DNA of 64,000 nt, taken from Natranaerobius thermophilus JW/NM-WN-LF. Lineage in GTDB: Bacteria > Bacillota > Natranaerobiia > Natranaerobiales > Natranaerobiaceae. The DNA lies in contig NC_010718.1 of the NCBI RefSeq assembly GCF_000020005.1, positions 377,001-441,000 on the forward strand, given 5' to 3'. A program made the translations under genes and the position numbers. Shown piece after piece: positions 19,091 to 36,267 of the stretch. Under the pieces are notes generated by a model, which was not told where the DNA came from, made no database searches, and was given only the letters and a program-made list of their open reading frames with translations. Positions within the stretch are counted from its first letter, which is position 1. Each line of letters starts with the position of its first letter.

Positions 19091-19215
19091 CCCTAGAATT
19101 AGAGCTGTTTTCGATAGGGTTTATCCCCTGACTTTAACAATCCAATCTCATTCTAGGGTAGATTTACAAAGTCAGTCTACACTGTTCAAATAAGGTTGAA
19201 GCTTAACAGTGCAGT
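19091..19215 (+). other. Highly structured intergenic segment
   Basis: CCCTAGAAT (19093-19101) pairs with ATTCTAGGG (19150-19158), enclosing a small hairpin around 19118-19130. A second hairpin has arms ACTGTT and AACAGT (about 19180 and 19207). GACTTT (19129) and AAAGTC (19168) can also pair across the first stem. It lies between the RusA-like and replication-relaxation genes. I match it to no known RNA family. Confidence 0.5.
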
Positions 19216-19334
19216 CTATAAGAAACTGCCTTTATTTTAATGATAAGTATTAAGTGAAATGTTACTCCGTTTGAATTAGTCAATAGAGTTTTAAATTATC
19301 CTTAATAATATTTAGACGAAAGGAGGGTCGTAGA

Positions 19335-20297: not shown

Positions 20298-20394
20298 TAA
20301 ACACAGGTTAGACATCAATGATATAATGACATTAAGGCAATACACACTAATCGATGGCTGGTATTATAAATAGCTGTTAGAGGAGCTGATGGCA

Positions 20395-21051: not shown

Positions 21052-21076
21052 AAAATATGCCCGTATGCAATATTTA

Positions 21077-21093
21077 CATTAATGTATATATAG
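21077..21093. repeat. 17-bp direct repeat, copy 2
   Basis: Same CATTAATGTATATATAG as 18116-18132, 26 bases after the stop of the ribbon-helix-helix gene. It reads ACATTAATGT, a perfect 10-bp palindrome, at its left. Confidence 0.75.
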
Positions 21094-21230
21094 TGTAAAA
21101 TATAGACATAAGATAGAGATATATCACCAAATGACCCCCTAAAAATGAACAGTAATGTCTAGTTTTTAGTTTTGAATAGGCGATACAAGCTATAAATCCC
21201 GTCATAGAAGTGTAAATCCAATTTTTATAA

Positions 21231-21258
21231 ATGGTCAAAATGGTCTTTTTGACCATAT
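21231..21258 (+). promoter_or_regulatory. Inverted repeat upstream of the tyrosine recombinase gene
   Basis: ATGGTCAAAA and TTTTTGACCAT flank TGGTC about 25 bases before the start codon at 21284. Operator or weak terminator. Confidence 0.5.
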
Positions 21259-21283
21259 TTTAAAGCAGAGGAGGTGAAGATTA

Positions 21284-21868
21284 TTGACAGAAACTGTAAG
21301 ATTCATGACCCAAAAAGAGTTAGATAAATTGTTTCGAACTATAGAGAAAAGCAAAGATAAGCACTGGCTACGTGATATAACCATGTTTAGGATAGCTTAT
21401 CGGTGCGGGTTGAGAGCTTCTGAAGTTGGGTTGATACAGGTATCAGATTTTAATCCAAAGATGAATGAACTATATGTTAGACGGAACAAAAACTCTCTTA
21501 ATAATACAATTAGGTTGGATAATAAAACTGCTCGCTACCTTAAGAAATATATCAAATCCTATCAATTGAAAGAGAACGAGATAATGTTCAAAAGCCAAAA
21601 AAGGTCACCAATTTCACGGCAGAATTTGGACAGGATTATGAAGAAGTACTGTGAAAAAGCAAAAATAAAAGATGTTACAAATTGGCATTTCCACGTGATG
21701 AAGCACTCCATAGCAGTTCACCTAGCTGAAACGGGTCTGGACGTGAAAGAGCTTCAGCATTACTTGGGACATAGGAACATAGCTAGCACCCTGGTATATT
21801 TTCAATTTACAACCAGACAGCAAGACGAAATGTATCAGAAGATAAGCAAGAACAATCAATTGGTGTAA
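21284..21868 (+). CDS. Small tyrosine recombinase
   Basis: 194 aa, TTG start after GGAGGTGAAGATTA. Seen: the catalytic domain only: RCGLRASEVGLIQV (Arg), HFHVMKHSIAVHL (His-x-x-Lys in place of the usual Arg), LGHRNIASTLVYFQF (His and the Tyr nucleophile). No N-terminal core-binding domain, so it resembles the compact FimB/FimE or XerD-like enzymes of mobile elements. Known: such proteins invert or integrate DNA segments or resolve dimers. It lies just upstream of a strong promoter; no invertible repeats were found around that promoter. Confidence 0.85.
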   Translation: MTETVRFMTQKELDKLFRTIEKSKDKHWLRDITMFRIAYRCGLRASEVGLIQVSDFNPKMNELYVRRNKNSLNNTIRLDNKTARYLKKYIKSYQLKENEIMFKSQKRSPISRQNLDRIMKKYCEKAKIKDVTNWHFHVMKHSIAVHLAETGLDVKELQHYLGHRNIASTLVYFQFTTRQQDEMYQKISKNNQLV

Positions 21869-21945
21869 AATGAGGTTTCATCTATATGTATATCAATCAA
21901 ATTTAGAATAATAATACATTTTTACAATAAAATAACACTTTTTTA

Positions 21946-21974
21946 TTGACAGGTATCAGATAATTGTTTATAAT
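21946..21974 (+). promoter_or_regulatory. Perfect sigma-A promoter with overlapping inverted repeat
   Basis: TTGACA (21946-21951), 17 bases, TATAAT (21969-21974). CAATAAAA (21925-21932) and TTTTATTG (21941-21948) form an inverted repeat that runs into the -35 box, a likely operator. The 514-bp gap 21869-22382 holds this promoter, a terminator and leader structures, but no convincing gene. Confidence 0.9.
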
Positions 21975-22100
21975 ATTATTAGAAGATATTCATAATAGTA
22001 ACTATTTCACGCACAACAAAATATAAATGTTTTGTGGGTAAAGTGTCCTCCATCAGAGGATAACGGATACCTATGTGTTTTTTTACGTTTGAGCCAAACT

Positions 22101-22155
22101 CCGCAGGCTTGTCGGGATTTTATTCTCCGATAAGCCCTGCGGATTTTTCTATTTT
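22101..22155 (+). terminator. Strong terminator in the leader of the 104-aa gene
   Basis: CCGCAGGCTTGTCGG (22101-22115) pairs with CCGATAAGCCCTGCGG (22127-22142), then a T-rich run. The first 12 bases almost match the terminator at 18471 (CCGCAGG-T/C-TTGT), so both leaders share an element. Confidence 0.85.
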
Positions 22156-22225
22156 ATGGAAAATTTTTGAGTTGTTCAGCTATTCATTAAATCAAGATGA
22201 ATCAAGAAGTATGGTAAAACATGTA

Positions 22226-22249
22226 AAATCGGTTCACGTGTACCGATTT
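22226..22249 (+). promoter_or_regulatory. Perfect 8-bp leader hairpin
   Basis: AAATCGGT (22226-22233) and ACCGATTT (22242-22249), loop of eight bases. No T-run follows, so it is not a terminator. Confidence 0.55.
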
Positions 22250-22300
22250 GTATGAGAGTAGTTAGAAGAAAAGAATATCAAGATCAAGGAAACTATTACA

Positions 22301-22356
22301 GGGGGTGATGATAATGATCTAGTTTAAATATGCTTCAAGAAAACAGAAAATTCAAA
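22301..22356 (+). promoter_or_regulatory. Conserved leader block with mini-ORF, copy 1
   Basis: A very strong ribosome site GGGGGTGATG precedes ATG-ATC-TAG (22314-22322), an ORF of two codons and a stop (or five in all if GTG 22305 starts). The 56-base block recurs at 22897-22952 with 6 differences, which keep the ATG and TAG. The real start of the next gene is 22383, with its own GGAGGG. Confidence 0.7.
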
Positions 22357-22382
22357 CAAAAACTTTAATTGGAGGGATTATC

Positions 22383-22697
22383 ATGAAAAGAATTATTGAT
22401 GGTTTAGTTTATGATACTGATAAGGCGGAGCTTTTAGCTGAGTACTATTATTCACACAAGGGGGACTTCAATTATATTAAAGAAAAACTTTATAAAACTT
22501 CAAACGGGCGGTACTTCTTATATGGTGAAGGAGGCCCTAAAACCGAATACTTTGAGAACGTAGGAAATAGTAGTTACAGTGGTGGCAACACGATCATACC
22601 ACTAACTAAAGAAGGAGTCCTAGATTGGGTAGAAAGAAGAGAAATTGATGATAAGAAGATATTGAAGGAGCTTTCAGAAGTTCTAGATGAAGCTTAA
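22383..22697 (+). CDS. 104-aa accessory protein, paralogue 1
   Basis: ATG after TTGGAGGGATTATC. Seen: KRIIDGLVYDTDKAELLAEY, then RYFLYGEGG, NSSYSGGNTIIPLT and a helical end. The pattern (N-terminal strand pair, YFLYGxGG, SGG/SxNxxIPL) recurs in 22973-23287 with about half the residues identical. Known: similar small proteins are frequent on clostridial integrative elements, with no assigned role that I can name. Its leader holds a promoter, terminator, hairpin and mini-ORF, so expression is tightly controlled. Confidence 0.75.
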   Translation: MKRIIDGLVYDTDKAELLAEYYYSHKGDFNYIKEKLYKTSNGRYFLYGEGGPKTEYFENVGNSSYSGGNTIIPLTKEGVLDWVERREIDDKKILKELSEVLDEA

Positions 22698-22731
22698 TTA
22701 GAGCCTGGGTACGCCTTTGGCTCTAATTTTT
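22697..22731 (+). terminator. Terminator after paralogue 1
   Basis: ATTAGAGCC (22697-22705) and GGCTCTAAT (22719-22727), T-run after it; it begins on the stop codon. Confidence 0.8.
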
Positions 22732-22801
22732 AATGTAGAAATATTGAAAGAGTATCTAGATAAATTTGATTTCACACAAAAGTATAACAGCAAGTCATTG
22801 A

Positions 22802-22847
22802 ACGGTATACCTGGTTTTTGAAACTTGGTATACCGTCTATTTTTTTG
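22802..22847 (+). terminator. Second terminator before paralogue 2
   Basis: ACGGTATACC (22802-22811) pairs perfectly with GGTATACCGT (22827-22836), followed by a run of T. It is the second terminator in the 275-bp gap. Confidence 0.85.
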
Positions 22848-22896
22848 TTGAAAATCGATGTTTAGAGTTTAAGGAGTAAAGATTAAAAGGGGCTTT

Positions 22897-22952
22897 GGGG
22901 GTGATGACAATGGCCTAGTTTAAATATGTTTTTAGAAAACAGAAAATTCAAA
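22897..22952 (+). promoter_or_regulatory. Conserved leader block with mini-ORF, copy 2
   Basis: GGGGGTGATG then ATG-GCC-TAG at 22910-22918, and the same TTTAAATATG...AGAAAACAGAAAATTCAAA tail as copy 1. Gene start follows at 22973 after AGGAGGG. Confidence 0.7.
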
Positions 22953-22972
22953 AAACTAAGGAGGGATAAATT

Positions 22973-23287
22973 ATGAAAAGGATTCACAATGGTATGGTTT
23001 ACGATACTGATAAGGCTGAACGTATTGCTTCATATAAGTACGGTGATCTAAATGACGCTAAGTATGTAATTGAAGAGTTATATAAAACAAAAAACGACAG
23101 ATACTTTCTTTATGCTCAAGGTGGTGCACTCAGTGAATATGGTGAAAAAGTCGGTACTAACAGTTATAGCGGTAACAGTGTGATTCTTCCATTAAGTGTA
23201 GATGAAGTCTTCGATTGGGCTGAAGATCGAAATATAAACTCACAGAAATTGGTAGAAGAGCTTTCTGATTATCTTGATGAAGCTTAG
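22973..23287 (+). CDS. 104-aa accessory protein, paralogue 2
   Basis: Same length and architecture as 22383-22697: KRIHNGMVYDTDKAERIASY, RYFLYAQGG, SYSGNSVILPLS and a C-terminal helix VEELSDYLDEA. Gene and leader were duplicated together, as the block at 22897 shows. 57 bases before the interrupted gene at 23344. Function unknown. Confidence 0.75.
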   Translation: MKRIHNGMVYDTDKAERIASYKYGDLNDAKYVIEELYKTKNDRYFLYAQGGALSEYGEKVGTNSYSGNSVILPLSVDEVFDWAEDRNINSQKLVEELSDYLDEA

Positions 23288-23596
23288 TTAGAGATTGGGA
23301 GTATAGCCCAGGCAGAATTATAACTATTTCAAGGAGGTGAAGCATGAGTAAAGTTACAAGTTTTCATTCAACAGAAATACTGGCTCTAACGCCAACAGAG
23401 ATAGAAGAACGTATTGAAGAGTTACTAGTTGAAAGGAATAGAGGAGAGCTTCAGCCTGAAGGATATTTTTATGATGGTATATGGTATCCGAGTGAAACCC
23501 AAGAAAAGGCTAGTTGCTGCTTTAATATTAATCACAAATTAGAACTATATGATCATTGCAAAACTGAAAATCACTTAAAGATATTAGCGGTAGAAA

Positions 23597-23604
23597 CCTT
23601 AATA
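23597..23604. repeat. 8-bp target duplication, left copy
   Basis: CCTTAATA, repeated at 26440-26447 on the other side of the IS256-family element. Confidence 0.9.
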
Positions 23605-24790
23605 GGTAGTGTCAAGAATTTTGTGTAAAGGGCGTAGGGCCCTCGGAAAAGTCTTAACAGTCGTATCTTAGCTCAAACATTTCTTGTAGCTTGTGCTGGC
23701 ATTGTTTGAAACCACGAAGTTTTTTATTAGCCCATCGAACATTGATGTCCTGAATAGCAAAGAAGATCACTTTTTCGGCAGCCTTTGGGCTAGTTAAACT
23801 GTTCATAGTCTTTAGACGTTTTCTAATTTCCTTAATAGTTCTCTCGATCCAGTTTGTAGTGTAGATAACAGCTCGAATATCAGATGGATAATCCAAGAAA
23901 GTTAATAAATTAGGCAAATTCTTTTCCCAGGAATCTACAACACGGGGATACCTTGAACCCCATTTTTCTTTAAATTTTTCGAAATGGTGGTGAGCCTCTT
24001 CTTTAGAAAAAGACTTATATATAGGCTTTAGGTCTTCAGCAACTTCATACTGGTCTTTTTTTCTTACGGCATTCAAAGTATTTCTAACCTGGTGAATGAC
24101 GCACTGCTGGACATCAGCTTTAGGAAACACCTTCTTGAAAGCATCAGCCAAACCAGGAAGTCCGTCAAACACACCTAGCAATACTTCCTGTACACCACGA
24201 GAGTGCAGGTCATTTAATAGTTCTTGCCAACCCAAGGCGTTTTCTCTACCACCAACGTAGAAACCTAGTATTTCCCTGTACCCCTCTTCATCGACACCAC
24301 AAGCTATGTAAACAGACTCATTTTCTACTGAATCACGCCGCAGCTTGATGTTCATGCCATCCAGGTAGAGAACACTATAACGCTTTTTGAGTGGCCTGTT
24401 TTGAAACTCTTGAATATCTTCTAAAGCTACTTCAGTAATATTACTTACCGTACTAGGCGAATAAGAATCGCCTAAAAGGGTCTCAATGAACTTTGCTACA
24501 TCACGAGTGCTCATACCTTTTTGGTACATCCTGATGATAGCTTCTTCAAGCCAGCAATCACGCTTTTGATACGGTTCTATTAGCTGGGTTTGAAAATCAC
24601 CATTTCGATCCCTTGGTACATTAAGATCTTCGATTTGGCCAAACAAGGTGTCTAGAGAACGTGTGTAATAGCCGTTTCGATAATTCTTTTCGTCTTGCTC
24701 TTTTAAAAAGTTTCTAATTTCTTCACGCATGATGAGTTCAATTTTTTCTTGAAGAAATTCCTGAACAAAACTTTTCATGATTTCTTCTAG

Positions 24791-26271
24791 TGTCAATGTT
24801 CTTTGAAAATGTCACCTAAAAACGCATAAATTTGTTCAGAGAAAATGTCACCCCCCAGGAAGGTAGACCGAGTTTTAAACTCGGTCCCTGGTATTTAGTA
24901 TAGTATCTAAAAGTTCTTGATCAGTCAGGTCGTAGTTAAGATTTGTTCTTTCACTTTGTTTTCTCCAAGGGTGATTTTCATCTGGGACTATTCTATTTTT
25001 AGGTGATTGCGTTGTTTTAACTTTTTTGGTCATTTTAGTAGTTGAAGGCTTGTCCACAATTTGAGTTTCAAACACCATATCTTTATATTTTACTTTAACT
25101 CCAAATTTAGGATTAGATAGGACAGTAACTTTAGATTTAGGAACCAGTTGACTATTTTTATCTAAAATTTGATAGTAACTTCCTTCAAAAGAGAAAGTGG
25201 CACTGTTGTCCACAGTTCTTTTGAATTTAGAACAAAGTATATGATCAAGATTAATATCTTGATTTAAACAGGTAAAAGCCGATAGCTCATTTTCGGGCTT
25301 TAGGGCAAATCTTTTATTAAAATCAGGCAAGAAATCTTTTTGTAAAAATTCATTAGCTTTCTCCATGGTAGTTATATTGTGTAGCTTAAAAAGTGTGGGC
25401 AGTCTGCTTTGTAAAGTATCAAAAAGCCTTTCAACTCGTCCTTTTGCTTGTGGAGAGTTAGCAGGTATAATAGTGACTCCTAACTCTTCCATAGCTGCAC
25501 CAAATTGAGTAGGCTTAACTTGTTTACCTGCGAGCTGTTCATCAATCGAAAGCTTGTCCGATTTAGGTGATCTAAAAATAGTGTGCTTATCGCTATAAAG
25601 ACTTGCAGGAATACCATAGTTTGAAATTAACTGATGCATAATCTGAAAGTATCCCTCAAGACATTCATTTTCAACAAAAAATAATCCTAGCAAAGCTCCT
25701 GTGGCATCATCGATAGCAGCGTGTAAATCACAATCAAAGCCAGTGTCAAACCAGTCATAAGGTGAGGCGTCTATTTGTACTAAAAGTCCCATTCTGTCCT
25801 TGCGTTTGCGTCTGTGGTGACTCTTACTCTTTTTATGTTTTTTAGGACTAGAAATTCCAGCTTTACTAAGAATTCTATGAACAACTGGCCTACTGATAGA
25901 GATTTTTTCTCGCTCGTTTAAAAGTTCTGTAAAATGAGTGAAATTTGCATTTGGGTATTTTTCTAACTTTAGAGAAATGATATGTTTTTCAGTACTTTCA
26001 GGAACAGAATGATCAGGCTTTTTACCTCGGCTTTTATGTATGACAAAACTGGGTCCTTCTAGTTGCACTCCTTTCTTCAGTCGTTTAATTTGTCGATCAC
26101 TGAGGTTCAAAGCTCGTGCTGCATCTCTAATGGTTAAGTAGCCATCAATTGTTTGATTGATAATATTTAGTTTTTTAATTTCTTCTTGGGTCATTTGATA
26201 TGTCACCTTTTTAGTCATAGTGACATTTTCACAGAACATTCTAGGGGTGACAATATCACAGAACAATTACA
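24791..26271 (-). mobile_element. ISNCY/IS1202-like element nested in the IS256-family element
   Basis: 1,481 bp. Ends begin TGTCAATGTTCTTTGA (left) and TGTAATTGTTCTGTGA (right, read inward). Flanks carry a 17-bp duplication, TTCATGATTTCTTCTAG, at 24774-24790 and 26272-26288. Each end holds two copies of a TTGTTC-x3-GA-AATGTCACC-like motif (left near 24797 and 24831, right near 26226 and 26250), likely transposase-binding sites. Long duplications are known in the IS1202-like group. Confidence 0.85.
24875..26194 (-). CDS. ISNCY/IS1202-like DDE transposase
   Basis: Start taken at ATG 26194, 9 bases after AAAAAGGTG; upstream in-frame starts lack a ribosome site. 439 aa. Seen: an N-terminal helix-turn-helix (IRDAARALNLSDRQIKRLKK), a basic segment (KKHKKSKSHHRRKRKDRMG), then the integrase core: VQIDASPYDWF (D), LYSDKHTIF (D), GRVERLFDTLQSRLP (E). 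Known: this order and the LHAAIDDATGALLGLFF strand are typical of the ISNCY/IS1202 group. The gene appears intact, so the element is probably active. Confidence 0.9.
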   Translation of the reverse strand: MTQEEIKKLNIINQTIDGYLTIRDAARALNLSDRQIKRLKKGVQLEGPSFVIHKSRGKKPDHSVPESTEKHIISLKLEKYPNANFTHFTELLNEREKISISRPVVHRILSKAGISSPKKHKKSKSHHRRKRKDRMGLLVQIDASPYDWFDTGFDCDLHAAIDDATGALLGLFFVENECLEGYFQIMHQLISNYGIPASLYSDKHTIFRSPKSDKLSIDEQLAGKQVKPTQFGAAMEELGVTIIPANSPQAKGRVERLFDTLQSRLPTLFKLHNITTMEKANEFLQKDFLPDFNKRFALKPENELSAFTCLNQDINLDHILCSKFKRTVDNSATFSFEGSYYQILDKNSQLVPKSKVTVLSNPKFGVKVKYKDMVFETQIVDKPSTTKMTKKVKTTQSPKNRIVPDENHPWRKQSERTNLNYDLTDQELLDTILNTRDRV

Positions 26272-26302
26272 TTCATGATTTCTTCTAGTTGATTTTTTTG
26301 CT

Positions 26303-26394
26303 CGGAATTTGGTACACTACTCAACGTAGGGTATCCTCCTTTCTAGCCGTAAAAACGGCTTGGGTTTTTTCTCCAAATTCCGAGGATACCCTAC
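26303..26394 (-). promoter_or_regulatory. Fold-back structure at the IS256 transposase start
   Basis: GTAGGGTATCCTC (26326-26338) pairs perfectly with GAGGATACCCTAC (26382-26394); on the minus strand the ribosome site AAAGGAGG is partly inside this stem. A competing stem, CGGAATTTGG (26303-26312) with CCAAATTCCG (26373-26382), crosses it. An inner AGCCGT/ACGGCT hairpin with T-run on the plus strand sits between. Confidence 0.75.
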
Positions 26395-26744
26395 TTTTTT
26401 TGTTTTAGTCAACCTTTACACAAAATATTGTACGTCATCCCTTAATAAAAGCCGTCATTTTCAAAATAGAAAAAGTCAGTAATATAGATAATGACTTAAA
26501 TATAGTTATAGACCCTGGTAAAAGTATCGGTTCAATAATAGACAGATCTTCGAACCTATCGATAGTAAATCGAGACCAGCTCTGGTTTGTTGAAGAATCA
26601 CATTATATAGGATCAAATGAGTTGTTTAAAAAGATTGCAAAACTTAGACAGGCTGAACTTAAGTCAGTTGGTGAAACGCAAACCAAACAAGCGGCAAATC
26701 TTAATGAGTTTATCAAAATATTAGGTTAGTTTATAAACTTTATT

Positions 26745-26775
26745 GCACCTGCCCAGCTGGGGTGGGTGCTATTTT
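26745..26775 (+). terminator. Terminator after the interrupted gene
   Basis: GCACC and GGGTGC arms around a CCCAGCTGGGG core (26745-26769), then TATTTTA. It precedes the intact paralogue. Confidence 0.7.
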
Positions 26776-26797
26776 AATGTTAAAGGAGGACGATTAA

Positions 26798-27367
26798 ATG
26801 ATTACTAAATTTGACGGTATGGAAATACTTAACAGACCAATCATAGAGATCGAAGAAAAAGTTAAAGAGATGTATGAAGATAGAAAAAATAGAGATACTC
26901 ATCCAGAAGGTGAATTTGATAGTAAACAAAGGTGGACTCCTGATGAGCATAGTGAAGAAGCCATTTGCTGCTACTCCATTAGAACCCCATCGGCTAGTTG
27001 GCCATTTTCACTAATCAAACATTGCAGGAGCAAAAAGCATCTGAAACATCTAGCATCTGAAACTTTAGTTAAAGCTTCAATAATAAAGATAGAAAGAATG
27101 GAAAATATTCAAGATAGACTAGAAATTGTAAAAGATTTAGATAATAGGATATGCAGAATTTATGACCTACAAAAAGAAGAACTAGTTTTAACTGAAAACC
27201 ATACAAACCTTATTCAAAACTGGCATAAAGCCCAATTAGATGAATTGTTTTTTGAACAATCTGATAAAAGAATCCAAGAATTAGATAGTCAGCACGGTGA
27301 GAATAATATTGCAAATATTAAGGACCTTGTACAGATGATAGAGACTGCTGTTAACAGTGACCCGTAA
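26798..27367 (+). CDS. 189-aa accessory protein, intact paralogue
   Basis: ATG after AAAGGAGGACG. Seen: MEILNRPIIEIEEKVKEM, then HPEGEFDSKQRWTPDEHSEE, CCYSI and HCRSKKHLKHLASETL (possible Cys/His metal site), followed by a helical region of about 110 residues (IERMENIQDRLEIVKDLD, LIQNWHKAQLDELFFEQSD). It serves as the template that shows the gene at 23344 was once the same length. No family recognised; specific to this kind of element as far as I can tell. Confidence 0.7.
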   Translation: MITKFDGMEILNRPIIEIEEKVKEMYEDRKNRDTHPEGEFDSKQRWTPDEHSEEAICCYSIRTPSASWPFSLIKHCRSKKHLKHLASETLVKASIIKIERMENIQDRLEIVKDLDNRICRIYDLQKEELVLTENHTNLIQNWHKAQLDELFFEQSDKRIQELDSQHGENNIANIKDLVQMIETAVNSDP

Positions 27368-27394
27368 AACTACTATGACTTCATATTGTTAGCT

Positions 27395-27424
27395 CCCTCA
27401 AGAGATTTGAGGGGGCGTTTTTTT
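27395..27424 (+). terminator. Terminator before the primase-like gene
   Basis: CTCCCTCAA and TTTGAGGGGG arms, then a run of T. About 80 bases before the start at 27504. Confidence 0.85.
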
Positions 27425-27437
27425 ATGTTTAAAAATC

Positions 27438-27499
27438 ACACCTCCATTACATACCCGTTCGCTTTTTGCGATCGGGATTTATTACTTTACAGGAGGTGT
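27438..27499 (+). promoter_or_regulatory. Ribosome-site-sequestering stem of the primase-like gene
   Basis: ACACCTCC (27438-27445) pairs perfectly with GGAGGTGT (27492-27499), the ribosome site of the gene starting at 27504. CCCG and CGGG (27454-27475) form an inner hairpin. Closing the stem would block translation. Confidence 0.7.
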
Positions 27500-27503
27500 T
27501 AAA

Positions 27504-29288
27504 ATGCAACAAAACGTAAATCTTCAAAAGTTTTTTAAGCTGTTTCATGAAAAGGACATCATTTTTCAGCTAGTTTCGACAGGGGGCACTCAAAAACAAG
27601 ATAACCCCCAATTAAGACTAAATGACCTGTCAGAACTAAATCAGTTTGTAGAAAAGCTAGAAGCAAGAGCAGATCAAGGTTACAAAGTTTATTTCATCAC
27701 AAATCCAGGTGGGACTAAGAACGATGATATCTTTGGAGTTAATGCACAGTTTATCGACATTGATTTTCATGAGTTTGAAGATGCAACTCAAAAAGAACAG
27801 AAGAAAAATGAAACAGTTAAGATGTTGAAAGAACTAAAGCTAAAACCTACAGCTATTGTAATGACCCCCAATGGAGTTCATGCTTACTGGCATTTAAAAG
27901 AAGAAGAAAGTAAAAGACATAAGGTGCTTGAAAGATTTATTGATACCCAAAAGATGATGGCTGAATACTTCGGGAGTTGTACAGGGGTAACTAATAGGCT
28001 GGGACAAGCTATGAGAGTCCCTAGCCCTAAGTTTGGTGGAAAAATTGTAGAAATCAATCCTGATCAGCTCTACACCCAAGAAGAAATTCGTTCGTCGTTT
28101 TACGCTGAAACTGAAAAGCCAAAAGCAAGAAATCAGCAAAATACTGGACAAATAGAACGAGTTAACAACAAGATCAAAATTTATAATATATCAGACTTTT
28201 TTGAAGTAGCAAAACAACAGGATATAAGAAAGTACTTAAAAACCAATGTACTACTGAATAAGAGTTTCAATTGTTTTTATCATCACGATAATAATCCATC
28301 CGCTGTTATTTCTAAGAAGAATGGGAGATACCAATATTTTTGCAATTCTTCCAATTGTAGAGCATATAATGGTAGATCAGGACTTACAATTATTGATTTA
28401 TTACAGTTAGACGGAATGACAAAATGGCAAGATATAATTTCTCAAATAACTAATACGTTTAACATAGAACTGGTTTCTACGAAATGGATGGAGGGACAGA
28501 AAAATAAGTATATAGCAAACTTGACTTTCTTAAAAGATGAACTTGAAGAAATGAAAAGTACTGATATATTGACAAGATATGGAATTATCATACTTGAGAA
28601 ACTTCTTAATATTGGACTTACTAAAATAACTCCAGAATTACATGATGAAAATGGAGAAGCTGTATTTTTTACTTCTAATAGATACTTATCAAGGGAAAAA
28701 AATAAGCCTATAGAAAAAGTAAATGCTTATCTTAACCTTTTTTGCATGTTGGGTCTACTTAACAAAGTGGATCCGCCTAAGAACCATAAGGTCACTCAAG
28801 AATCTTTAAAACGAGCTAGAGAAAATAACAGGAGAGTTATCAATTTTTACAGTGTCCCAAATTACTATGAGATTAAAAACCAGATTGAAAACAGAGCTTT
28901 TGATTTAAGGAAACAAGGCTTCTCCATAAATACTGTAAGTCAAGTGTACGTGAAAAATTATGATGAAGAACTTGCTAAAAAAGTTTACCATTCAAATGAA
29001 AACATCAGTGAGTTTGGTATTAAAGTAAGAGAAAAAATATTAGAAAAAGCAGAGTCACAGATATACCATTATGGATATACTCATGACAAACTATTGGCAG
29101 GGCTTAAAGTATCAGGTAGAAGAATTAAAAAAGAACGACTGAAGCAAGAGTTTAAGAAAGTTATCCCTATTCTTATTGATAAAGGGTATATCTTAAAACC
29201 TGCTAATAATAAATTGAAGAGCAAATTTAATATAAAATCAAAGGGTTATCCTAAAATATTATTAAAACCTGAAGATCATGAGCTGTAA
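27504..29288 (+). CDS. Primase-like replication protein with CHC2-type zinc finger
   Basis: 594 aa, ATG after GGAGGTGTTAAA. Seen: a RepB-like archaeo-eukaryotic primase fold, FIDIDFHEF (catalytic acidic pair) at about residues 83-91, TPNGVHAYWHL near 122-132, and TGVTNRLGQAMRVPSPKF near 155-172; then a zinc finger CFYHHDNNPSAVI...YFCNSSNC like CHC2 primases, with GLTIIDLLQL after it; and a 290-residue C-terminal helical region. Known: such fusions start plasmid or element DNA synthesis. Suggests the element can replicate its own DNA. Translation may be controlled by the stem upstream. Confidence 0.75.
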   Translation: MQQNVNLQKFFKLFHEKDIIFQLVSTGGTQKQDNPQLRLNDLSELNQFVEKLEARADQGYKVYFITNPGGTKNDDIFGVNAQFIDIDFHEFEDATQKEQKKNETVKMLKELKLKPTAIVMTPNGVHAYWHLKEEESKRHKVLERFIDTQKMMAEYFGSCTGVTNRLGQAMRVPSPKFGGKIVEINPDQLYTQEEIRSSFYAETEKPKARNQQNTGQIERVNNKIKIYNISDFFEVAKQQDIRKYLKTNVLLNKSFNCFYHHDNNPSAVISKKNGRYQYFCNSSNCRAYNGRSGLTIIDLLQLDGMTKWQDIISQITNTFNIELVSTKWMEGQKNKYIANLTFLKDELEEMKSTDILTRYGIIILEKLLNIGLTKITPELHDENGEAVFFTSNRYLSREKNKPIEKVNAYLNLFCMLGLLNKVDPPKNHKVTQESLKRARENNRRVINFYSVPNYYEIKNQIENRAFDLRKQGFSINTVSQVYVKNYDEELAKKVYHSNENISEFGIKVREKILEKAESQIYHYGYTHDKLLAGLKVSGRRIKKERLKQEFKKVIPILIDKGYILKPANNKLKSKFNIKSKGYPKILLKPEDHEL

Positions 29289-29360
29289 TTATAATGGACA
29301 CTAAATAGAAATTTTATTCTTCTTAAAAGCCGTCATATCAGTTAATTTAGTTATATTGTA

Positions 29361-29419
29361 AAAAGGGTGGAACAATAAGCTATATATAATAATACTAAAG
29401 CCTATTGTTCCACCCTTTT
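29361..29419. terminator. Bidirectional terminator between convergent genes
   Basis: A perfect 17-bp stem, AAAAGGGTGGAACAATA (29361-29377) with its complement at 29403-29419, A and T runs at both sides. It serves the primase-like gene and the gene at 29499. Confidence 0.85.
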
Positions 29420-29498
29420 CATTATTGTTAGAAATATCCCACGGTTATAGGTTTTGTAAGCTTTAAAAAGTAAATAATATGTCCAATGCTAGGTAGAA

Positions 29499-30020
29499 TT
29501 ATTGAAATTCATCACCATCAAAATAATTATCTCCAAACTCTACATCAGATTCTATAACTTCACCTTTAATATGCTTAACATTAGCTTTTTCCAAGAAATC
29601 CATCCTAATCGATAATCCATCTTCGTAATCAAAGCCAAGTCCAGCCATGTTTTCTAAGAATATAGCTATAAGTTCAATAGAACCGAATTCTAAAAGGTCG
29701 GTCTCACTGATTTCTATTCCAAGGTAAGCCTCCCAGGGTACATGTTCCAGAACAAATTCTTTCTTAATATTAAGCTTGTCCTTAGGCGAATGATATTCAT
29801 TTACCCCAAAATCGTAAATTATACCTTCGTCTGTCTCAATTTTTTCAATATCCGTGATGAGATTGACTAGCAGAGGTTTTAGGTTGAGTATTTGATTCAT
29901 GAGTTTTCTGTAATTGCCTTTTTCGACATTTTCTTTTTCGTGTGGAAAAAGTTCGACGATTTTATCTTCTATTTCTGCCACAAAATTCACATTTTGCTTA
30001 AATAAATCCTTGAAAAGCAA
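29499..30020 (-). CDS. DUF6557-like protein, copy 2
   Basis: 173 aa from TTG 30020, 6 bases after AGAGGTG; GTG 30029 overlaps that site. Seen: LLFKDLFKQNVNFVAEIEDK, EYHSPKDKLNIKKEFVLE, WEAYLGIEISETDL and LENMAGLGFDYE, the same blocks as at 15684-16253 (YSSPENKL, WDEILGMEID, VYGFD). Paralogue on the opposite strand; both end in acidic tails. A perfect palindrome, ATCTGATAATCAGAT (30043-30057), lies just upstream as a candidate operator. Function unknown. Confidence 0.7.
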   Translation of the reverse strand: MLFKDLFKQNVNFVAEIEDKIVELFPHEKENVEKGNYRKLMNQILNLKPLLVNLITDIEKIETDEGIIYDFGVNEYHSPKDKLNIKKEFVLEHVPWEAYLGIEISETDLLEFGSIELIAIFLENMAGLGFDYEDGLSIRMDFLEKANVKHIKGEVIESDVEFGDNYFDGDEFQ

Positions 30021-30057
30021 AGAACTCACCTCTTCTTTCTATATCTGATAATCAGAT

Positions 30058-30477
30058 TTTTACCACATTTTTTAATAGAACACAAGGGGGCTAATAATAA
30101 TTAGTACTACGTTCATTAGATTTAAAAGATAAAGAAGCTAATACATTGATATTAAAGAAGTGGGTAATACATTATAAGGGTATATAAATCTACCTGATAG
30201 TAACCAGATGAAAACCCTGCTACGAAAGTTTTTACAGGACTTATAGTAAGGGTGCGTTTATGATGTGTAGGACCTTGCAGAAACTTAATATAAGTATACT
30301 TCTTCAAAATAACTTCTAACAAGATGATCTAAAAACCAATGGTGTTGTAACACTAAGGGTCATAAATCTATCCCAAGTAAAATTGCCATAAATCTTGACA
30401 TAACAGGAACTAGAAGTCACAAGATATGGGTCGGTTAAGAATGTTATTGGCTCAATAACATATCATAATATATTTTT
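30058..30477. other. 420-bp gap with hairpins, no gene seen
   Basis: AT-rich; no frame has coding character. TGTTATTG (30442-30449) and CAATAACA (30453-30460) form a perfect hairpin close to the next leader. TTGACA at 30397 has no good -10 partner. Nothing else recognised. Confidence 0.5.
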
Positions 30478-30486
30478 GGAGGTGAT

Positions 30487-30546
30487 ATGTCTCCCAAAAA
30501 ATTTAGCACTCGAAAGCGGTGTGATTTTAATCGAATATCTCTTTAA
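30487..30546 (+). CDS. Possible 19-aa leader peptide
   Basis: ATG 30487, following GGAGGTGAT; reads SPKKFSTRKRCDFNRISL then TAA, ending 4 bases before a terminator hairpin. Strongly basic. The main gene starts at 30608 after its own AAGGGGG. Position suggests an attenuation leader rather than a functional protein. Confidence 0.45.
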   Translation: MSPKKFSTRKRCDFNRISL

Positions 30547-30549
30547 GCG

Positions 30550-30580
30550 TACTCCTGATTACCAGGAGTATTTTTATTTT
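30550..30580 (+). terminator. Terminator between leader peptide and DUF2325 gene
   Basis: TACTCCTG (30550-30557) and CAGGAGTA (30563-30570), then TTTTTATTTT. Confidence 0.8.
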
Positions 30581-30607
30581 AAAAACTTTTTAAGGGGGCT
30601 GATAATC

Positions 30608-31783
30608 ATGTTGTTTAATTTGGATGAAAATAGTAAAAGGATCCTTGAAGTACTAGAAGAAGAAGGGATAACTTATACGGATGTGATTACATTTCAGTTC
30701 TTTATTTTGCACTTTGAACTAGAACTGAGAAATGACACTTCCAAAACAGTTCAAATGATTGAAAGTTTAGTAAAGCTTCCCAAAAATAAAAAAGATAAAC
30801 TTTATAAAAACGATGAAGACGCATTTAAATGGACTATTAAAAAATTAGCAAAAAGATACTATAAGCAATCAGAATTAAGAAATGATGCAAATATAGCGGA
30901 GTTGTTAAAAGAAAGTATTATATTTTCATTCATGCAAGATGTAGAGAGCTTATATTTAGACTCAGAATCATCAATGGGACAATATATGAAGGATAAAAAC
31001 TACTTCCAATTACTAAACTTCTATTTAATAATTCAGGTAGTTACTAATCATCCTGAACTCCACGAAAATCAAATACAAAGATTTTTTAAAAATGAATTTG
31101 ATCCCATAAAACCCCATTTAAATTTTGTTAAGAATATAAAAGAGCAAGGGAAATTTGATATCCTTTCTGTTTTAATACAAGATGGAATTCTTAATCATGG
31201 AACGGTGCTCTACTATTTTAATAAGACAGGTGAAGACAAAATTGAAGCTATTATATCGGCAAATGATTACAAAGAAATTGATACCAAGTATATGAAACAA
31301 CTAGAGGAAGAAACCTTACAAAACTGGTCCCAAAAAGAAGAAGAAAGAAAAGAATATAGCAAAACTGTAGACAAGCTCCAATCAGAGTTAGCCGAAAAAG
31401 AAAAAAGAATCAAAGAACTAGAGCGTGAGTTGGAGAAATATAAGAAACAGCAAAGTTCTAATAATTTTTCGGGTAGTAAAGTGCTGGTGATAGGAGATAC
31501 TCAGAGAAAAGACGGCTACAAAAATATCATTGAAATTTATAATGGTGAATTTATTTTTTTAGATGGTAATGATGATCATCATCTAGTTAAAGAAAAAGCC
31601 CAAGCAACTGATGTGATTTTTCATGTGACAGATTATGGCTCTCACAGTGTACACTTCCAGTTGAAGAAGTTTAAGAAAGTTGTCTTTGTGAATAATGCAG
31701 GGCTTGACTCGCTTAGATACGCTGTAGAAGATTACCTTGGGTATGATTGCAAAAATTGTAGTCGTTCAGCTGGAAACAACTAA
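30608..31783 (+). CDS. DUF2325 protein
   Basis: 391 aa from ATG 30608 after AAGGGGGCTGATAATC; the frame is open further up, but a terminator lies there. Seen: a helical N-terminal region of about 230 residues, a coiled coil (EEERKEYSKTVDKLQSELAE to about residue 285), then a compact domain KVLVIGDTQRKDGYKNIIE, DVIFHVTDYGSHSVHFQLKK and VVFVNNAGLDSLRYAVEDYL. Known: the last part is DUF2325, with no defined enzyme activity. Likely cytoplasmic. It follows a leader with terminator, so is probably regulated by read-through. Confidence 0.75.
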   Translation: MLFNLDENSKRILEVLEEEGITYTDVITFQFFILHFELELRNDTSKTVQMIESLVKLPKNKKDKLYKNDEDAFKWTIKKLAKRYYKQSELRNDANIAELLKESIIFSFMQDVESLYLDSESSMGQYMKDKNYFQLLNFYLIIQVVTNHPELHENQIQRFFKNEFDPIKPHLNFVKNIKEQGKFDILSVLIQDGILNHGTVLYYFNKTGEDKIEAIISANDYKEIDTKYMKQLEEETLQNWSQKEEERKEYSKTVDKLQSELAEKEKRIKELERELEKYKKQQSSNNFSGSKVLVIGDTQRKDGYKNIIEIYNGEFIFLDGNDDHHLVKEKAQATDVIFHVTDYGSHSVHFQLKKFKKVVFVNNAGLDSLRYAVEDYLGYDCKNCSRSAGNN

Positions 31784-31826
31784 ATTTTGATAAGATGTAT
31801 GCTTAAAAATCTTGAGCTAAAAATTT

Positions 31827-31862
31827 TTCATCAGACGTGGGATTTACCACGTCTGATGAAAT
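31827..31862 (+). terminator. Terminator after the DUF2325 gene
   Basis: A perfect 14-bp stem, TTCATCAGACGTGG (31827-31840) with its complement at 31847-31860, A and T runs on both sides. Confidence 0.8.
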
Positions 31863-31932
31863 TTATAAAAATCTCTTATAAAAGGGGAGAGTTTTCAGTT
31901 TAAAGAATTAATTCTATTTTATTGCTATCTTA

Positions 31933-32361
31933 TTAATACCAGGGCATGGTAGGTGGATAATACTCAAGAAATCCTTGAAAAAAATCCTGGCAAGGATTAT
32001 ATTGTTGATCCACAGGTTGTCTGTGTGATTCGGTAATAGGTGGTGACGTTTCATCAATATCATTTCTATATACGTTTTGTACATATTGTTTTTGTGGTTT
32101 TGGTTTTCTTGTATTTTGTTTTTTTGGCGTTTCTTTCTGTTTGGCTCTTTCTTGTTGTTGGTTTTCTTTTATAAGCAACATTGCATATTCGATTAATTCT
32201 TCTTTTCGTTTTTTCCATTTTTTCTCACGTATTCTTAAAAAAATCATAAGCGGTATAAATAACAGAACAAATCCAATTATCACATGTTCATCTCTAACAC
32301 TATTCTCTAATATGTATTGAAGTTCATGAATTTTACTAGTTATGGCATTAAAATCAATCAA
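31933..32361 (-). CDS. Small membrane protein, function unknown
   Basis: 142 aa, TTG start after GGAGGTGATCAC. Seen: one transmembrane segment VIIGFVLLFIPLMIFL at about residues 27-42, then a basic helix (REKKWKKRKEELIEY), a Lys/Gln/Pro-rich linker and a tail rich in Pro and Tyr ending PPTMPWY. Single-pass, cytoplasmic tail likely. The only other minus-strand gene in this part of the element. No family recognised. Confidence 0.55.
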   Translation of the reverse strand: MIDFNAITSKIHELQYILENSVRDEHVIIGFVLLFIPLMIFLRIREKKWKKRKEELIEYAMLLIKENQQQERAKQKETPKKQNTRKPKPQKQYVQNVYRNDIDETSPPITESHRQPVDQQYNPCQDFFQGFLEYYPPTMPWY

Positions 32362-32436
32362 GTGATCACCTCCATTTCTAGTTTACATAATATCACAAAT
32401 TTACAATAAAATCCAGGCAAGTTTTTGATTTTAATT

Positions 32437-32490
32437 ACCCGTTTTCCTAGACGCTATAAGAGTAAGCGTCCAGAGAAAACGGGTTTTTTT
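32437..32490 (+). terminator. Nested terminator upstream of the recombinase operon
   Basis: ACCCGTTTTC (32437-32446) with GAAAACGGGT (32475-32484), inner GACGC/GCGTC (32450-32470), then a T-run. Confidence 0.8.
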
Positions 32491-32523
32491 ATTGCAATTA
32501 CATTAATACAGATAATTTTTCTC

Positions 32524-32554
32524 TTAAGCCACTTTGAGGTGGCTTAATTTTTTT
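32524..32554 (+). terminator. Second terminator upstream of the recombinase operon
   Basis: TTAAGCCAC (32524-32532) and GTGGCTTAA (32539-32547), then seven T. Two terminators in a row precede the small gene at 32610. Confidence 0.8.
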
Positions 32555-32609
32555 GTCCAGTTAATAGGACAAACATTTTAAACAATATCATTTTAAAGGA
32601 GGTGTTATT

Positions 32610-32813
32610 ATTAACAATCATGAATTAAGTAGTAAAGTCAATCTCAGTGAATCTAAGGAAAAAAGAGTTGAAAAATTTCTTAAGGAGAAAGAAAATCCTT
32701 ATGTCGTGAAAAGAGAAAATGAAAAACCGATTAAAATAGCTTTTAATGAAAGTAAAACGCCTATTGATGAGTTGATTCACAAATATTTTGTTGAAAAATA
32801 TGGTAGTGCTTAA
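32610..32813 (+). CDS. 67-aa protein before the serine recombinase; likely ATT start
   Basis: Perfect AAAGGAGG ends at 32602; in frame there is only ATT (32607 or 32610) at a suitable distance and no ATG, GTG or TTG until codon 36 (GTG). The frame reads NNHELSSKVNLSESKEKRVE, then a basic helix, and ends TPIDELIHKYFVEKYGSA, then TAA. It stops 23 bases before the recombinase start. Small genes often precede large serine recombinases and may modulate them (inference). Confidence 0.6.
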   Translation: MNNHELSSKVNLSESKEKRVEKFLKEKENPYVVKRENEKPIKIAFNESKTPIDELIHKYFVEKYGSA

Positions 32814-32836
32814 AATTTTAGAAAAGGAGGTGCAGC

Positions 32837-34462
32837 ATGGTTACTACAATAAAATATGCAAAATATATGCGTTACTCAAGGGTAGATGGTGATAGAGAGA
32901 AAGAAAGTATTCAAAATCAGGATAAAATAATTGAAAACTATATCAAAGATCGTGAAACTAAATATAATGAGAAATGGTTGTTAGTAGGAGAATATGTGGA
33001 CCTAGATTATACTGGCTCAAACTTTAATAGACCTGAATTTTTAAAAATGAAGGAAGAAGTTGAAAATGATAAAATTGATGTAATAATATCGAAAGATGCG
33101 TCCAGGTTTGGAAGAAACGTGGCAACAGAGGTTTATTTTGAAGAAATATTTCCAAAATACAGGACACGATTTATTGGAGTGGTTGATAATGTAGATACTG
33201 CTTCTGAAAACCAGGCTTTTGAAAGAAAGATAAGAGGATTAATGAATGAGAACTATTGTAGTGATATTTCACAAAAGGTTAAAAGCTCGCTAAAAACTAA
33301 AATGATTGAGGGTAAATTTATAGGGGCTTCTCCACCTTATGGATTTGAACGAGACCTTGATGATAAGCATAAGTTAATTGTTGATGAAGAGGTCAGACCT
33401 ATAATATTGAAAATAGTGGATTTATATTTAAAAGGTTATGGGTTTTCAGCTATAGCTAAAATATTAAATGCTGAAAAAATACCATCACCTTCTGCTTATA
33501 AAAAAATGAAAAAATCAAACTATAAAAATCCAAGAGCTAATAGGAGGTTGTGGAGTCCTTCAACTATTAGGAAAATTTTAACAGAACCTATTTATAATGG
33601 CACACTCGTACAGGGAAAGCATCCAAAAATTAACTATAAAATTAATAGTAGAAAAAAAAGTGGAGAGTCTGAGTTAATCAAAGTAGATAATGCAGTTGAG
33701 AAAATTATTGACGATGAAACATTTGAGTTAGTTGGGAAAAAAATTAATAGTAGAAGTAAAAATGTTAAGAATAATGACTCTCCGAGTGTTTTACCAGATA
33801 ATGTGTATTCAGGACTTGTATATTGTGAGGATTGTGGCTCAAAGATGGTATATAGAAGTGATAGGGATATGTATATGTGCGGTACCTATGCTAAATATGG
33901 GAAGAAATACTGCTCCAATCATAATATCAAAACAAAAGTTATAAATGAAGTGGTCATAGAGCAATTAAATTTGATTATTAAGCTTACAATTGATATTAGA
34001 ACTCTTTTGAACGATATAAAAAAGAAATACCAAGAAGTAAGTGGTAAGGATGTTATTGAAATTAAAAGAAAAAAGCGTGAAAATCGCCTAAAAACTTTAA
34101 AAGAATCTTTAAAAATTTTAAGGGAAGAGTATGCAGATGGTATAATTGACCAAGAGGAATATAAAGAGACTAGGTCTGAATATGTAAATGAAATTAATAC
34201 CATAGAAAATGAACTGGGGAAATTACAAGTTTCATCAAGCAAAGAATCTGTAATTAATGATTGGGAGGAGAAAGTTAAGGACTTAGAAAAGTTTTATAAT
34301 AACTTTCTGAAAATTAACAAAATAGATAGAGAAATAGCTTTAAAACTTATAGATACCATAACTGTAGGAACCGACCAAATATCTGAAATCAAATTCGCTG
34401 GAGCTTCGCCATTTGAATTAGCTCAAGAATTGAAATCTGAAATATCAAGTGTGGCACTATGA
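32837..34462 (+). CDS. Large serine recombinase (element integrase/excisionase)
   Basis: 541 aa, ATG after AAAGGAGGTGCAGC. Seen: an N-terminal resolvase domain with nucleophile Ser in MRYSRVDGDREKESIQNQ (about residue 14), DLDYTGSNFNRPEF and the ISKDASRFGRN motif; a recombinase domain (PPYGFERDLDDKHKLIVDEE to about residue 290); a zinc ribbon YCEDCGSKM...YMCGTY...CSNH; and a coiled coil (RLKTLKESLKILREEY) ending at about residue 470. Known: this domain set integrates and excises elements at specific att sites, as SpoIVCA does for skin. It sits about 90 bases from the junction at 34552. Confidence 0.95.
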   Translation: MVTTIKYAKYMRYSRVDGDREKESIQNQDKIIENYIKDRETKYNEKWLLVGEYVDLDYTGSNFNRPEFLKMKEEVENDKIDVIISKDASRFGRNVATEVYFEEIFPKYRTRFIGVVDNVDTASENQAFERKIRGLMNENYCSDISQKVKSSLKTKMIEGKFIGASPPYGFERDLDDKHKLIVDEEVRPIILKIVDLYLKGYGFSAIAKILNAEKIPSPSAYKKMKKSNYKNPRANRRLWSPSTIRKILTEPIYNGTLVQGKHPKINYKINSRKKSGESELIKVDNAVEKIIDDETFELVGKKINSRSKNVKNNDSPSVLPDNVYSGLVYCEDCGSKMVYRSDRDMYMCGTYAKYGKKYCSNHNIKTKVINEVVIEQLNLIIKLTIDIRTLLNDIKKKYQEVSGKDVIEIKRKKRENRLKTLKESLKILREEYADGIIDQEEYKETRSEYVNEINTIENELGKLQVSSSKESVINDWEEKVKDLEKFYNNFLKINKIDREIALKLIDTITVGTDQISEIKFAGASPFELAQELKSEISSVAL

Positions 34463-34463
34463 T

Positions 34464-34498
34464 AAAAAGTGGCAGTATTTTCGCTGCCACTTTTATTT
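34464..34498 (+). terminator. Terminator of the recombinase gene
   Basis: AAAAAGTGGCAG and CTGCCACTTTT arms, T-rich tail to 34498. Confidence 0.85.
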
Positions 34499-34551
34499 CT
34501 ATTTCGAAATAGTTTAAATCCTTAATAGGGTTTTAGGAGCTATATTAATGA

Positions 34552-34573
34552 GTGTGTAATAAACATTACGCAC
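34552..34573. other. Probable attachment-site junction of the element (attR)
   Basis: GTG-T-GTAAT-AAAC-ATTAC-G-CAC is a 22-bp imperfect dyad. The deacetylase frame on the minus strand stops inside it (TTA 34566-34568). Serine recombinase sites are short imperfect dyads near the recombinase gene. The partner site would lie left of the window. Confidence 0.6.
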
Positions 34574-34802
34574 CCCAGGCTGCATCAAAAGAAATGGCCA
34601 ATTTATTTTGGTCAGTTTCAACAGAGTAGATAGGAGCTTTTTTCTCTTCTTCCTCTTCTTTTTCCTCTTCGTTAACAACGGGGATGACAGTGGCGGTTTC
34701 TTGATGATAAATCGAAAAATAACCGAATAAGCCAATAAAGATGAAAAATCCTATCATAATAATAGTAGACATCTTTCTTCTAAAATTAACAGTAAAAAAC
34801 AT
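34566..34802 (-). pseudogene. PdaB-like polysaccharide deacetylase, N-terminal fragment
   Basis: ATG 34802 after GGGGGAG. Seen: a short basic N-terminus, a transmembrane segment TIIMIGFFIFIGLFGYF, an acidic linker (EEEKEEEEEKK), then IYSVETDQNKLAISFDAAWG. The last motif opens the catalytic domain of PdaB-like deacetylases (FD plus AWG), which should continue about 190 residues but stops after A. Known: PdaB acts on spore or cell-wall peptidoglycan in sporulating Bacilli and Clostridia. The rest of the gene is expected on the far side of the element. Confidence 0.8.
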
Positions 34803-34956: not shown

Positions 34957-36267
34957 TTAATTTTTAGCAGTTATGTCTATACCTTCTAGTAATGCGTAAG
35001 GGAATAATCTATTACCTATCCATTTAGCCTCCTGGCTAAAGGAAACTAGCTGATTTTGTAAAGCTTCAAATACATTGACAGCTACCATGCAATCTTTAAT
35101 TCTTCCAATAATTTTTCCGTTTTCAACTAAGTAGCCCAAAGAAATATTGCCATTAACTTCACCGCTGTAAGGATTACCTGCCCAAGCACCCATTAAATCT
35201 TTTATGATAATCCCTCGATCTAACTCTCCTATCATATCGTGATAAGCCATTTCACCTGGTGACAGGACACATGTGTGTAAATCCGGAGCGGGTAAAGAAT
35301 AAGGGCTTTGTCTGATACCATGTCCCGTAGGTTCTACACCTAGAGAATGAGCTGTTAATAGATCGACCGGGAAAGTTTTAATAGTTCCATTCTTTATTAG
35401 GTCTGTTTCTTTTGTTGGTACTCCCTCATCGTCAACAGGACACATTCCCGGCGAAAATGGACGATGAGGCATATCAGTTAAATTCACTTTTTCATCAAAA
35501 AGCTGTTGGTCGAGTTTATCTTTAAATGGTGAAACTTCTTTTTCTACACTTTGACCGTTAAGGCTGGCCAGTATTGGTCGCATAAAATCGCTCATGGCCT
35601 CCGGGGCAAAAATTACTTTGTAGCTGCCACTGTTGATCTCTTTTTCTTTAGAACCGTAATGTAAGTCCTGCATCAATTCATTTTTTAAAGCAGTCAGGTC
35701 AGTGAATAGCCGGGGTAATTTTTTACCTTGACCGATACGCAAAAAACTTTTTCCTACTAATAACATAGCTCCACCTCTTACGGAAAAGGCAGTTCTTTCG
35801 TACTCGGTATTTAATCCCTCGGAATTTTTGATTTTCACCTGTAATTGCGTTTTTTCAATACTGGCACTGGCTAAAGCTTCGGAATTCTTACTTCTAATAC
35901 TATCTACTATTTCTTCGCCCATTTCTATCATTTTTTCAGTAGGTAAATCCATAACATCTTGATCGTACATATTATCTAATTCTTCAGGATTAACTTTAGG
36001 TAAACTGGGTTGAAAACTTCTTCCAAACTGACTGGTTTCTCTGGCTTTGTTTAACAGATCTTCAGCTTTGTCTTCAGTAGAAGTAGTAGTGCAAAAACCC
36101 AGGCGATTATCTGGAGAGATCAACCTTAGTGCTGTGGATTTTTGTTCTTTGGTTTTTATGTTTTTAAGTTTGTTATTTTCGAATTCAACTGGAGTCCTGG
36201 TTACAGACACCTCAAACAGTTCTGCTTGTTCGTTTTTTTTCTTTGCTAAAGAGAGCAGTTTATCCAT
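34957..36267 (-). CDS. tldE: TldE/PmbA family protein
   Basis: 436 aa, ATG after AGGGAGG. Seen: the N-terminal domain (ELFEVSVTRTPVEFENNKLK), the central SYKVIFAPEAMSDFM and FKDKLDQQLFDEKV region, and the C-terminal LLEG end. It lacks the HExxxH site of TldD, as expected of TldE/PmbA. Known: TldD-TldE form a heteromeric metalloprotease that degrades unfolded peptides and matures modified peptides. Overlaps tldD by 8 bases, so the two are translated together. Confidence 0.9.
   Translation of the reverse strand: MDKLLSLAKKKNEQAELFEVSVTRTPVEFENNKLKNIKTKEQKSTALRLISPDNRLGFCTTTSTEDKAEDLLNKARETSQFGRSFQPSLPKVNPEELDNMYDQDVMDLPTEKMIEMGEEIVDSIRSKNSEALASASIEKTQLQVKIKNSEGLNTEYERTAFSVRGGAMLLVGKSFLRIGQGKKLPRLFTDLTALKNELMQDLHYGSKEKEINSGSYKVIFAPEAMSDFMRPILASLNGQSVEKEVSPFKDKLDQQLFDEKVNLTDMPHRPFSPGMCPVDDEGVPTKETDLIKNGTIKTFPVDLLTAHSLGVEPTGHGIRQSPYSLPAPDLHTCVLSPGEMAYHDMIGELDRGIIIKDLMGAWAGNPYSGEVNGNISLGYLVENGKIIGRIKDCMVAVNVFEALQNQLVSFSQEAKWIGNRLFPYALLEGIDITAKN

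Follow-up and report, generated by a model that had tools for sequence, protein, structure and literature searches.

The window analysed here, a stretch of 64,000 nucleotides of Natranaerobius thermophilus JW/NM-WN-LF (genome G000), represents C2:377001-441000 of a 3,165,557-bp contig of this soda-lake bacterium that contains both halves of a split spore-wall gene, pdaB. At 32837..34462 (+) the window encodes a large serine recombinase, as a preliminary description of the locus had recognised, of 541 amino acids and with resolvase, recombinase and zinc-ribbon domains, and directly upstream lies an ORF of 68 codons with an apparent ATT start (32607..32813, +) that encodes a DUF6870 protein, a candidate recombination directionality factor. 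The recombinase gene converges on a minus-strand ORF (34802-34566) that terminates with ...AISFDAAWGA and a stop codon. Aligned to the intact PdaB of the sister genome G001 (same family), the region 34566..34802 (-) comprises the N-terminal 76-78 codons of pdaB, with the signal anchor and NodB motif 1 (...SFDAAWG). This fragment alone matched no family in a search, as it retains no more than the signal anchor and the first NodB motif. It ends inside a 22-bp dyad, GTGTGTAATAAACATTACGCAC (34552..34573), which begins 90 bp after the recombinase stop codon and represents the element-side att arm; also in these details, the fragment ending in AWGA and the dyad some 90 bases from the recombinase, the preliminary description was accurate. 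On its other side, pdaB adjoins a host gene at 34957..36267 (-) that we take to be TldD/PmbA-like and that is likewise the neighbour of pdaB in G001 and in G002, a genome of the same order and another family.

The preliminary description had suggested a PdaB-like gene as the interrupted target and had pointed to the left of the window for the C-terminal half and a short matching att core, and both were found there. A search of the genome for polysaccharide deacetylases detected the C-terminal half at C2:364329-364969 (-), where the deacetylase match itself, at C2:364641-364952 (-), lacks the first 18 model positions. The halves are separated by 46.6 kb, and the two junction regions have no longer run of identical bases in common than an exact 16-bp core, GCACCCCAGGCTGCAT, the right copy of which lies at 34570..34585 (genome 411570-411585) and the left copy outside the window at C2:364954-364969, with a core-to-core period of 46,616 bp. 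By our own estimate, which does not include the in-frame requirement, an exact 16-mer common to stretches of 240 bp and 2.5 kb is expected by chance with a probability of about 1e-4. The host-coded part of the N-terminal fragment terminates within the core, and joining the halves across it results in one uninterrupted reading frame for a PdaB (SpoVIE) of 285 amino acids. By a wide margin, the best family for the rejoined protein is TIGR02764 (PdaB; E 2e-61), and as the 207 bits are below the curated NCBI cut-off of 237.4 bits, PdaB-like is the safe name. The rejoined protein is 67% identical to the intact PdaB of G001, with which it shares the pmbA-type neighbour. An intact homologue elsewhere, which according to the preliminary description would speak against an interrupted gene, was looked for in the own genome, but the search gave no other intact PdaB that is closely related, the next homologues being only 35-37% identical.

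The locus thus has the skin-like arrangement that had been proposed: the insertion interrupts the coding sequence of a sporulation gene of which the two halves are present, with a frame-restoring direct-repeat core and a large serine recombinase inside the element. The predicted excision would rebuild the attB junction TTTGATGCAGCCTGGGGTGCAGAAAG and the attP junction GTAATAAAGTTCATGCAGCCTGGGGTGCGTAATGTTTATTAC, and it is close to certain that there is a precisely excisable element within this PdaB-like gene. The element extends over C2:364970-411585, of which the right-hand 34.6 kb are in the window (1..34585).

The same gene is found split at the same codons in two other genomes. In G001, pdaB is intact, and the element as well as a close recombinase are absent. 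In G002, which is assembled into one contig, pdaB is split at the same codons as in N. thermophilus; the N-terminal half ends with ...TTTGATGCAGCCTGGGGAGCGTAA, the C-terminal half begins with GCAGCCTGGGGTGCC 7,298 bp apart from it, and the in-frame join results in a protein of 261 amino acids. The recombinase of G002 is 54% identical to that of N. thermophilus and has the same convergent orientation. Among 398 sampled genomes of the phylum, a close recombinase was detected only in G000 and G002 (1014-1030 bits, the next match reaching 293), and a scan of GTDB contigs for this recombinase added one close member, from the MAG UBA7523 (L047/G061), besides six distant ones. The UBA7523 recombinase is 52% identical to that of N. 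thermophilus, the related recombinases are 52-55% identical, and the three form a clade of their own. In UBA7523, the recombinase gene is immediately followed by the N-terminal half of pdaB (...AISFDASWDDG...), the C-terminal half belongs to a different contig of this MAG, and a join at TG restores an intact frame, with the exact crossover being less sure because the shared core is short (TGGG). On the PdaB tree, UBA7523 is placed apart from the Natranaerobius group, which makes two or more separate acquisitions likely.

Also the predicted att sites are related. In the reconstructed attP of N. thermophilus, the dyad and the left end form a 42-bp palindrome centred on TG/CA with 30 of 42 symmetric positions, and equally symmetric 42-mers occur at 7 of 63,958 positions of the window. 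The attP of G002 is symmetric about TG at 28/42 positions and that of UBA7523 about the same TG at 34/48. The attP arms, GTAATAAAGTT...TTTATTAC, are conserved and palindromic, and GTAATAAAGTTnnTGCAGCCTGGGGnGCGTAATnTTTATTAC is common to the reconstructed attP sites of G000 and G002. In UBA7523, the two ends of the element (at L047:9600-9660, and in L054 before the C-terminal half) have a similar stretch in common, as AGCTGAAGCAAGGGGTTTTACGGCATAGTTAAATAA and as its complement.

All three recombinase genes are directly preceded by a gene for a protein of 61-69 amino acids of the Pfam family DUF6870 (E 5e-7, 1e-3 and 9e-9), and these small proteins are homologous between the elements. Judged by position and size, the DUF6870 protein is a candidate recombination directionality factor, and the module likely consists of a recombinase and its directionality factor. 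The genes of G000 and G002 have no ATG, GTG or TTG before the conserved part, but an ATT at normal spacing after a good ribosome-binding site (32607-32609 in the window and about L040 13640 (-) in G002), whereas the UBA7523 copy has an ATG; the apparent ATT start might keep the expression of these two genes low.

The cargo is wholly different among the three elements. In the window, it includes a DNA methylase and a type III restriction subunit (2761..7622, +) and a Mutator-family transposase (23654-24796, -), and a second gene that is transposase-like by sequence only (24875-26266, -). No conjugation genes and no convincing matches to phage structural genes were found among the scanned part of the ORFs of the element in the window. 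The Spo0E-like gene that the preliminary description had noted was not confirmed: the only candidate found (17292-17858, -) does not match the Spo0E family of Pfam, and scanning the element for the motif gave no hit. Two paralogous proteins of 403 and 429 amino acids near the left end of the element (L009:8186-9397 and 13877-15166) have a membrane-anchor start in common, the former having no Pfam match. The 7.3-kb element of G002, in which transfer genes were not found, carries genes for a methyltransferase, a sortase, an NlpC/P60 protein and a CBS-PAS-HD protein, and the UBA7523 element carries a type IV transfer set (TraG/VirD4-, TrbL-, PrgI- and TraG-ATPase-like genes). A phage origin was considered and rejected, since matches to recombinases in phage records reach only 27-34% and viral contigs gave only one distant locus; the element resembles a derivative of a plasmid or an ICE more than a prophage. 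It also contains an actin-like (ParM) gene (L009:16467-17267, genome 373467-374267) that, by accession order, is probably Nt-cParM3, which is listed in the later assembly NZ_CP144221.1 (PMC12270681), and the element therefore seems to persist in culture. That assembly is 27.7 kb shorter, but an excision does not account for the gap, as the sizes differ from 46.6 and about 33.7 kb (the latter being the sigK element described below) and the actin-like gene is apparently still listed.

There are no frameshifts or stops in either pdaB half in the three genomes. In 22 intact PdaBs, 51 columns show a conservation of at least 95%, and of these the rejoined proteins of G000, G002 and UBA7523 keep 50, 48 and 51, which is the same retention as that of the intact PdaBs when these were left out in turn. 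Their end branches on the PdaB tree are 0.33, 0.70 and 0.62, all below the median of 0.82. Both argue against a long-standing decay, most clearly for G002 with its reduced element, and they cannot date the insertion in G000. Selection after the insertion is not measurable by dN/dS because synonymous sites are saturated.

As to a possible control of the module, the sequence TAGGACAAAC (32565..32574, +), 42 bp upstream of the DUF6870 start, perfectly matches WWRRACARNY, the SpoIIID consensus of B. subtilis reportedly established by Halberg and Kroos in 1994. Boxes of this type (TAGGACAAAC, TAAGACAACT and TAGGACAACT) are located 42, 47 and 53 bp before the three DUF6870 starts when scored against that consensus. 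Same-strand matches occur in 7.4, 5.2 and 7.8% of the 120-bp stretches of the respective sequences, so that the joint chance is about 0.07 x 0.05 x 0.08 = 3e-4, a value to be read with the caveat that the motif was recognised post hoc after a search for conserved words. The conservation of the promoter 9-mer is not significant alone (16 of 200 shuffles were as good), and therefore our argument is based solely on the matches to the fixed SpoIIID consensus, under that same caveat. In B. subtilis, pdaB belongs to the sigma-E regulon and is required for sporulation (PMC4703394), SpoIIID binds upstream of pdaB, and spoIVCA is under SpoIIID control (PMC517825), while in C. difficile the excision of skin is gated by the directionality factor CD1234, which is controlled by SpoIIID and sigma-E (PMC5025042). 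The target and the proposed regulator therefore share a compartment.

N. thermophilus has retained sporulation genes but is listed as non-sporogenous (PMC3533761), and each of the four genomes (G000, G001, G002 and UBA7523) has SpoIVA, SpoIIID and SASPs. A search run as sporulation check revealed that sigK is intact in G001 and split in the three genomes with a split pdaB, each time with another serine recombinase adjoining a sigK half. In N. thermophilus, the sigK halves are about 33.7 kb apart (C2:1802942-1803295 and 1837004-1837351; L068, L069), in G002 the period is 2,740 bp, and in UBA7523 the split gene is distributed over two contigs. The three recombinases of the sigK elements lack a SpoIIID box within 200 bp. 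The co-splitting of sigK and pdaB is suggestive and not proof, because sigK is apparently split in about 7 of 61 relatives, and G000 and G002 are related. Among other genomes of the phylum, sigK is apparently also split, at differing positions, in G007, G022, G024, G028 and G039. As to the elements themselves, the recombinase gene of N. thermophilus (L068:3334-4869) adjoins the C-terminal half, with several ordinary-looking metabolic genes between the halves, and the very small element of G002 (L070, C1:1639103-1642505; about 2.7 kb) has one serine recombinase gene, one GNAT-like gene and the 12-bp repeat TGAAATACTTAT.

The best explanation, which we regard as fairly probable, is a pdaB-targeting, ICE-derived, skin-like element that is excised in the mother cell. 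An element of 46.6 kb and of plasmid or ICE origin would have been inserted by its own large serine recombinase at the SFDAAWG codons of pdaB (spoVIE). In the sporulating mother cell, sigma-E and SpoIIID would activate a single operon that encodes the DUF6870 protein and the recombinase. With the DUF6870 protein as directionality factor, the recombinase would then bring about recombination between attL and attR, and the element would leave as a circle in a timed excision, whereby pdaB would be restored and PdaB made in the terminal mother cell. We infer this developmental excision, and the recurrence in three genomes, the conserved halves, the SpoIIID-type box and the split sigK strengthen it. 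The non-sporogenous listing of N. thermophilus and the sigK-element recombinases, which have no such box within 200 bp, speak against it.

There are two live rivals. The element may be an ordinary ICE/IME that uses the conserved pdaB motif as attB and excises for its own transfer, not for sporulation; as pdaB is silent in growing cells, such an insertion would be tolerated. The transfer genes of the UBA7523 copy (for a type IV coupling protein and TrbL-, PrgI- and TraG-like ATPase proteins) fit with this, TndX-like recombinases of conjugative elements are among the nearest outside relatives, and an attB in the most conserved codons is usual for integrases. We nevertheless consider it unlikely, as the 7.3-kb element of G002 has no transfer genes that could be found and yet has kept recombinase, small protein, att sites and pdaB halves intact, the SpoIIID-type box is present in 3/3 elements, and these genomes also have a split sigK. 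The other rival is a permanent disruption: sporulation would have been lost, and the insertions in pdaB and sigK would be stuck, harmless relics. The non-sporogenous listing of the host (PMC3533761) and the transposases and other cargo of its element would agree with that, but a relic is rather improbable with pdaB halves that keep the conserved residues without frameshift or stop in three genomes, a full-length recombinase with all domains, the SpoIVA, SpoIIID and SASP genes, and an excision module retained even in the minimal G002 element. That an assembly artefact or a chance similarity of an unrelated deacetylase fragment simulates the split gene has a negligible probability; the distribution of the UBA7523 case over contigs is all that was found in its favour, whereas in N. 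thermophilus both halves are on one 3.17-Mb contig and can be joined in frame across the 16-bp core, and the independent repetition of the pattern in the single-contig genome G002 refutes it.

With the mother-cell excision as the preferred reading, it can tentatively be proposed that an ICE-derived module under SpoIIID made pdaB a developmental switch in at least three lineages, acting in each host together with a second, unrelated element in sigK, so that two chromosomal excisions would be required per mother cell. If true, the hosts are bacteria that have been written off as asporogenous or never been seen sporulating. The data bear on the question whether Natranaerobius is truly non-sporulating, as sigK and pdaB are both split and both look repairable. 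Furthermore, pdaB (spoVIE) would join the few sporulation genes that are restored by excision of DNA, and the uncharacterised family DUF6870 emerges as a candidate class of recombination directionality factors. One integration module has repeatedly been combined with unrelated cargo, in one case with a conjugative gene set, and a conjugative element may thus have become a developmental switch of its host.

Among known systems, the skin elements of sigK (B. subtilis spoIVCA; C. difficile CD1231/CD1234) are similar in having a large serine recombinase and a small protein in a split mother-cell gene, an exact short core that joins the gene in frame, and a SpoIIID-type box ahead of the operon with the small-protein gene (PMC5025042, PMC517825). 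They differ in that the target here is pdaB and not sigK, the cargo is plasmid- or ICE-like, the small protein is a DUF6870 protein with no match shown to CD1234, and the excision is predicted from sequence. The gin element of gerE in Bacillus cereus ATCC10987 can also be likened to the element described here, as it is a non-prophage element with a recombinase and a directionality factor (GirC/GirX), has a palindromic element-side att site and rebuilds a sporulation gene upon excision (PMC5595907), but the gene and the host group are others, and here one integration module is common to two cargo-rich versions, one of them with conjugation genes, and one reduced version. SP-beta in spsM, vfbin in spoVFB, vrin in spoVR and yin in yabG are excisable, too, and have their own recombinases in interrupted sporulation genes (PMC4191935, PMC10747680), but unlike the pdaB element they are described as prophages or prophage-like; in the literature searched, no report of pdaB as interrupted target was found. 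Conjugative transposons of the Tn4451/Tn5397 type share a conjugation gene set with one member of the family, that of UBA7523, and the recombinase identity to annotated TndX is about 31-32%, but the recombinases of the pdaB elements form a distinct clade with a distinct attB, and their insertion is in one fixed gene.
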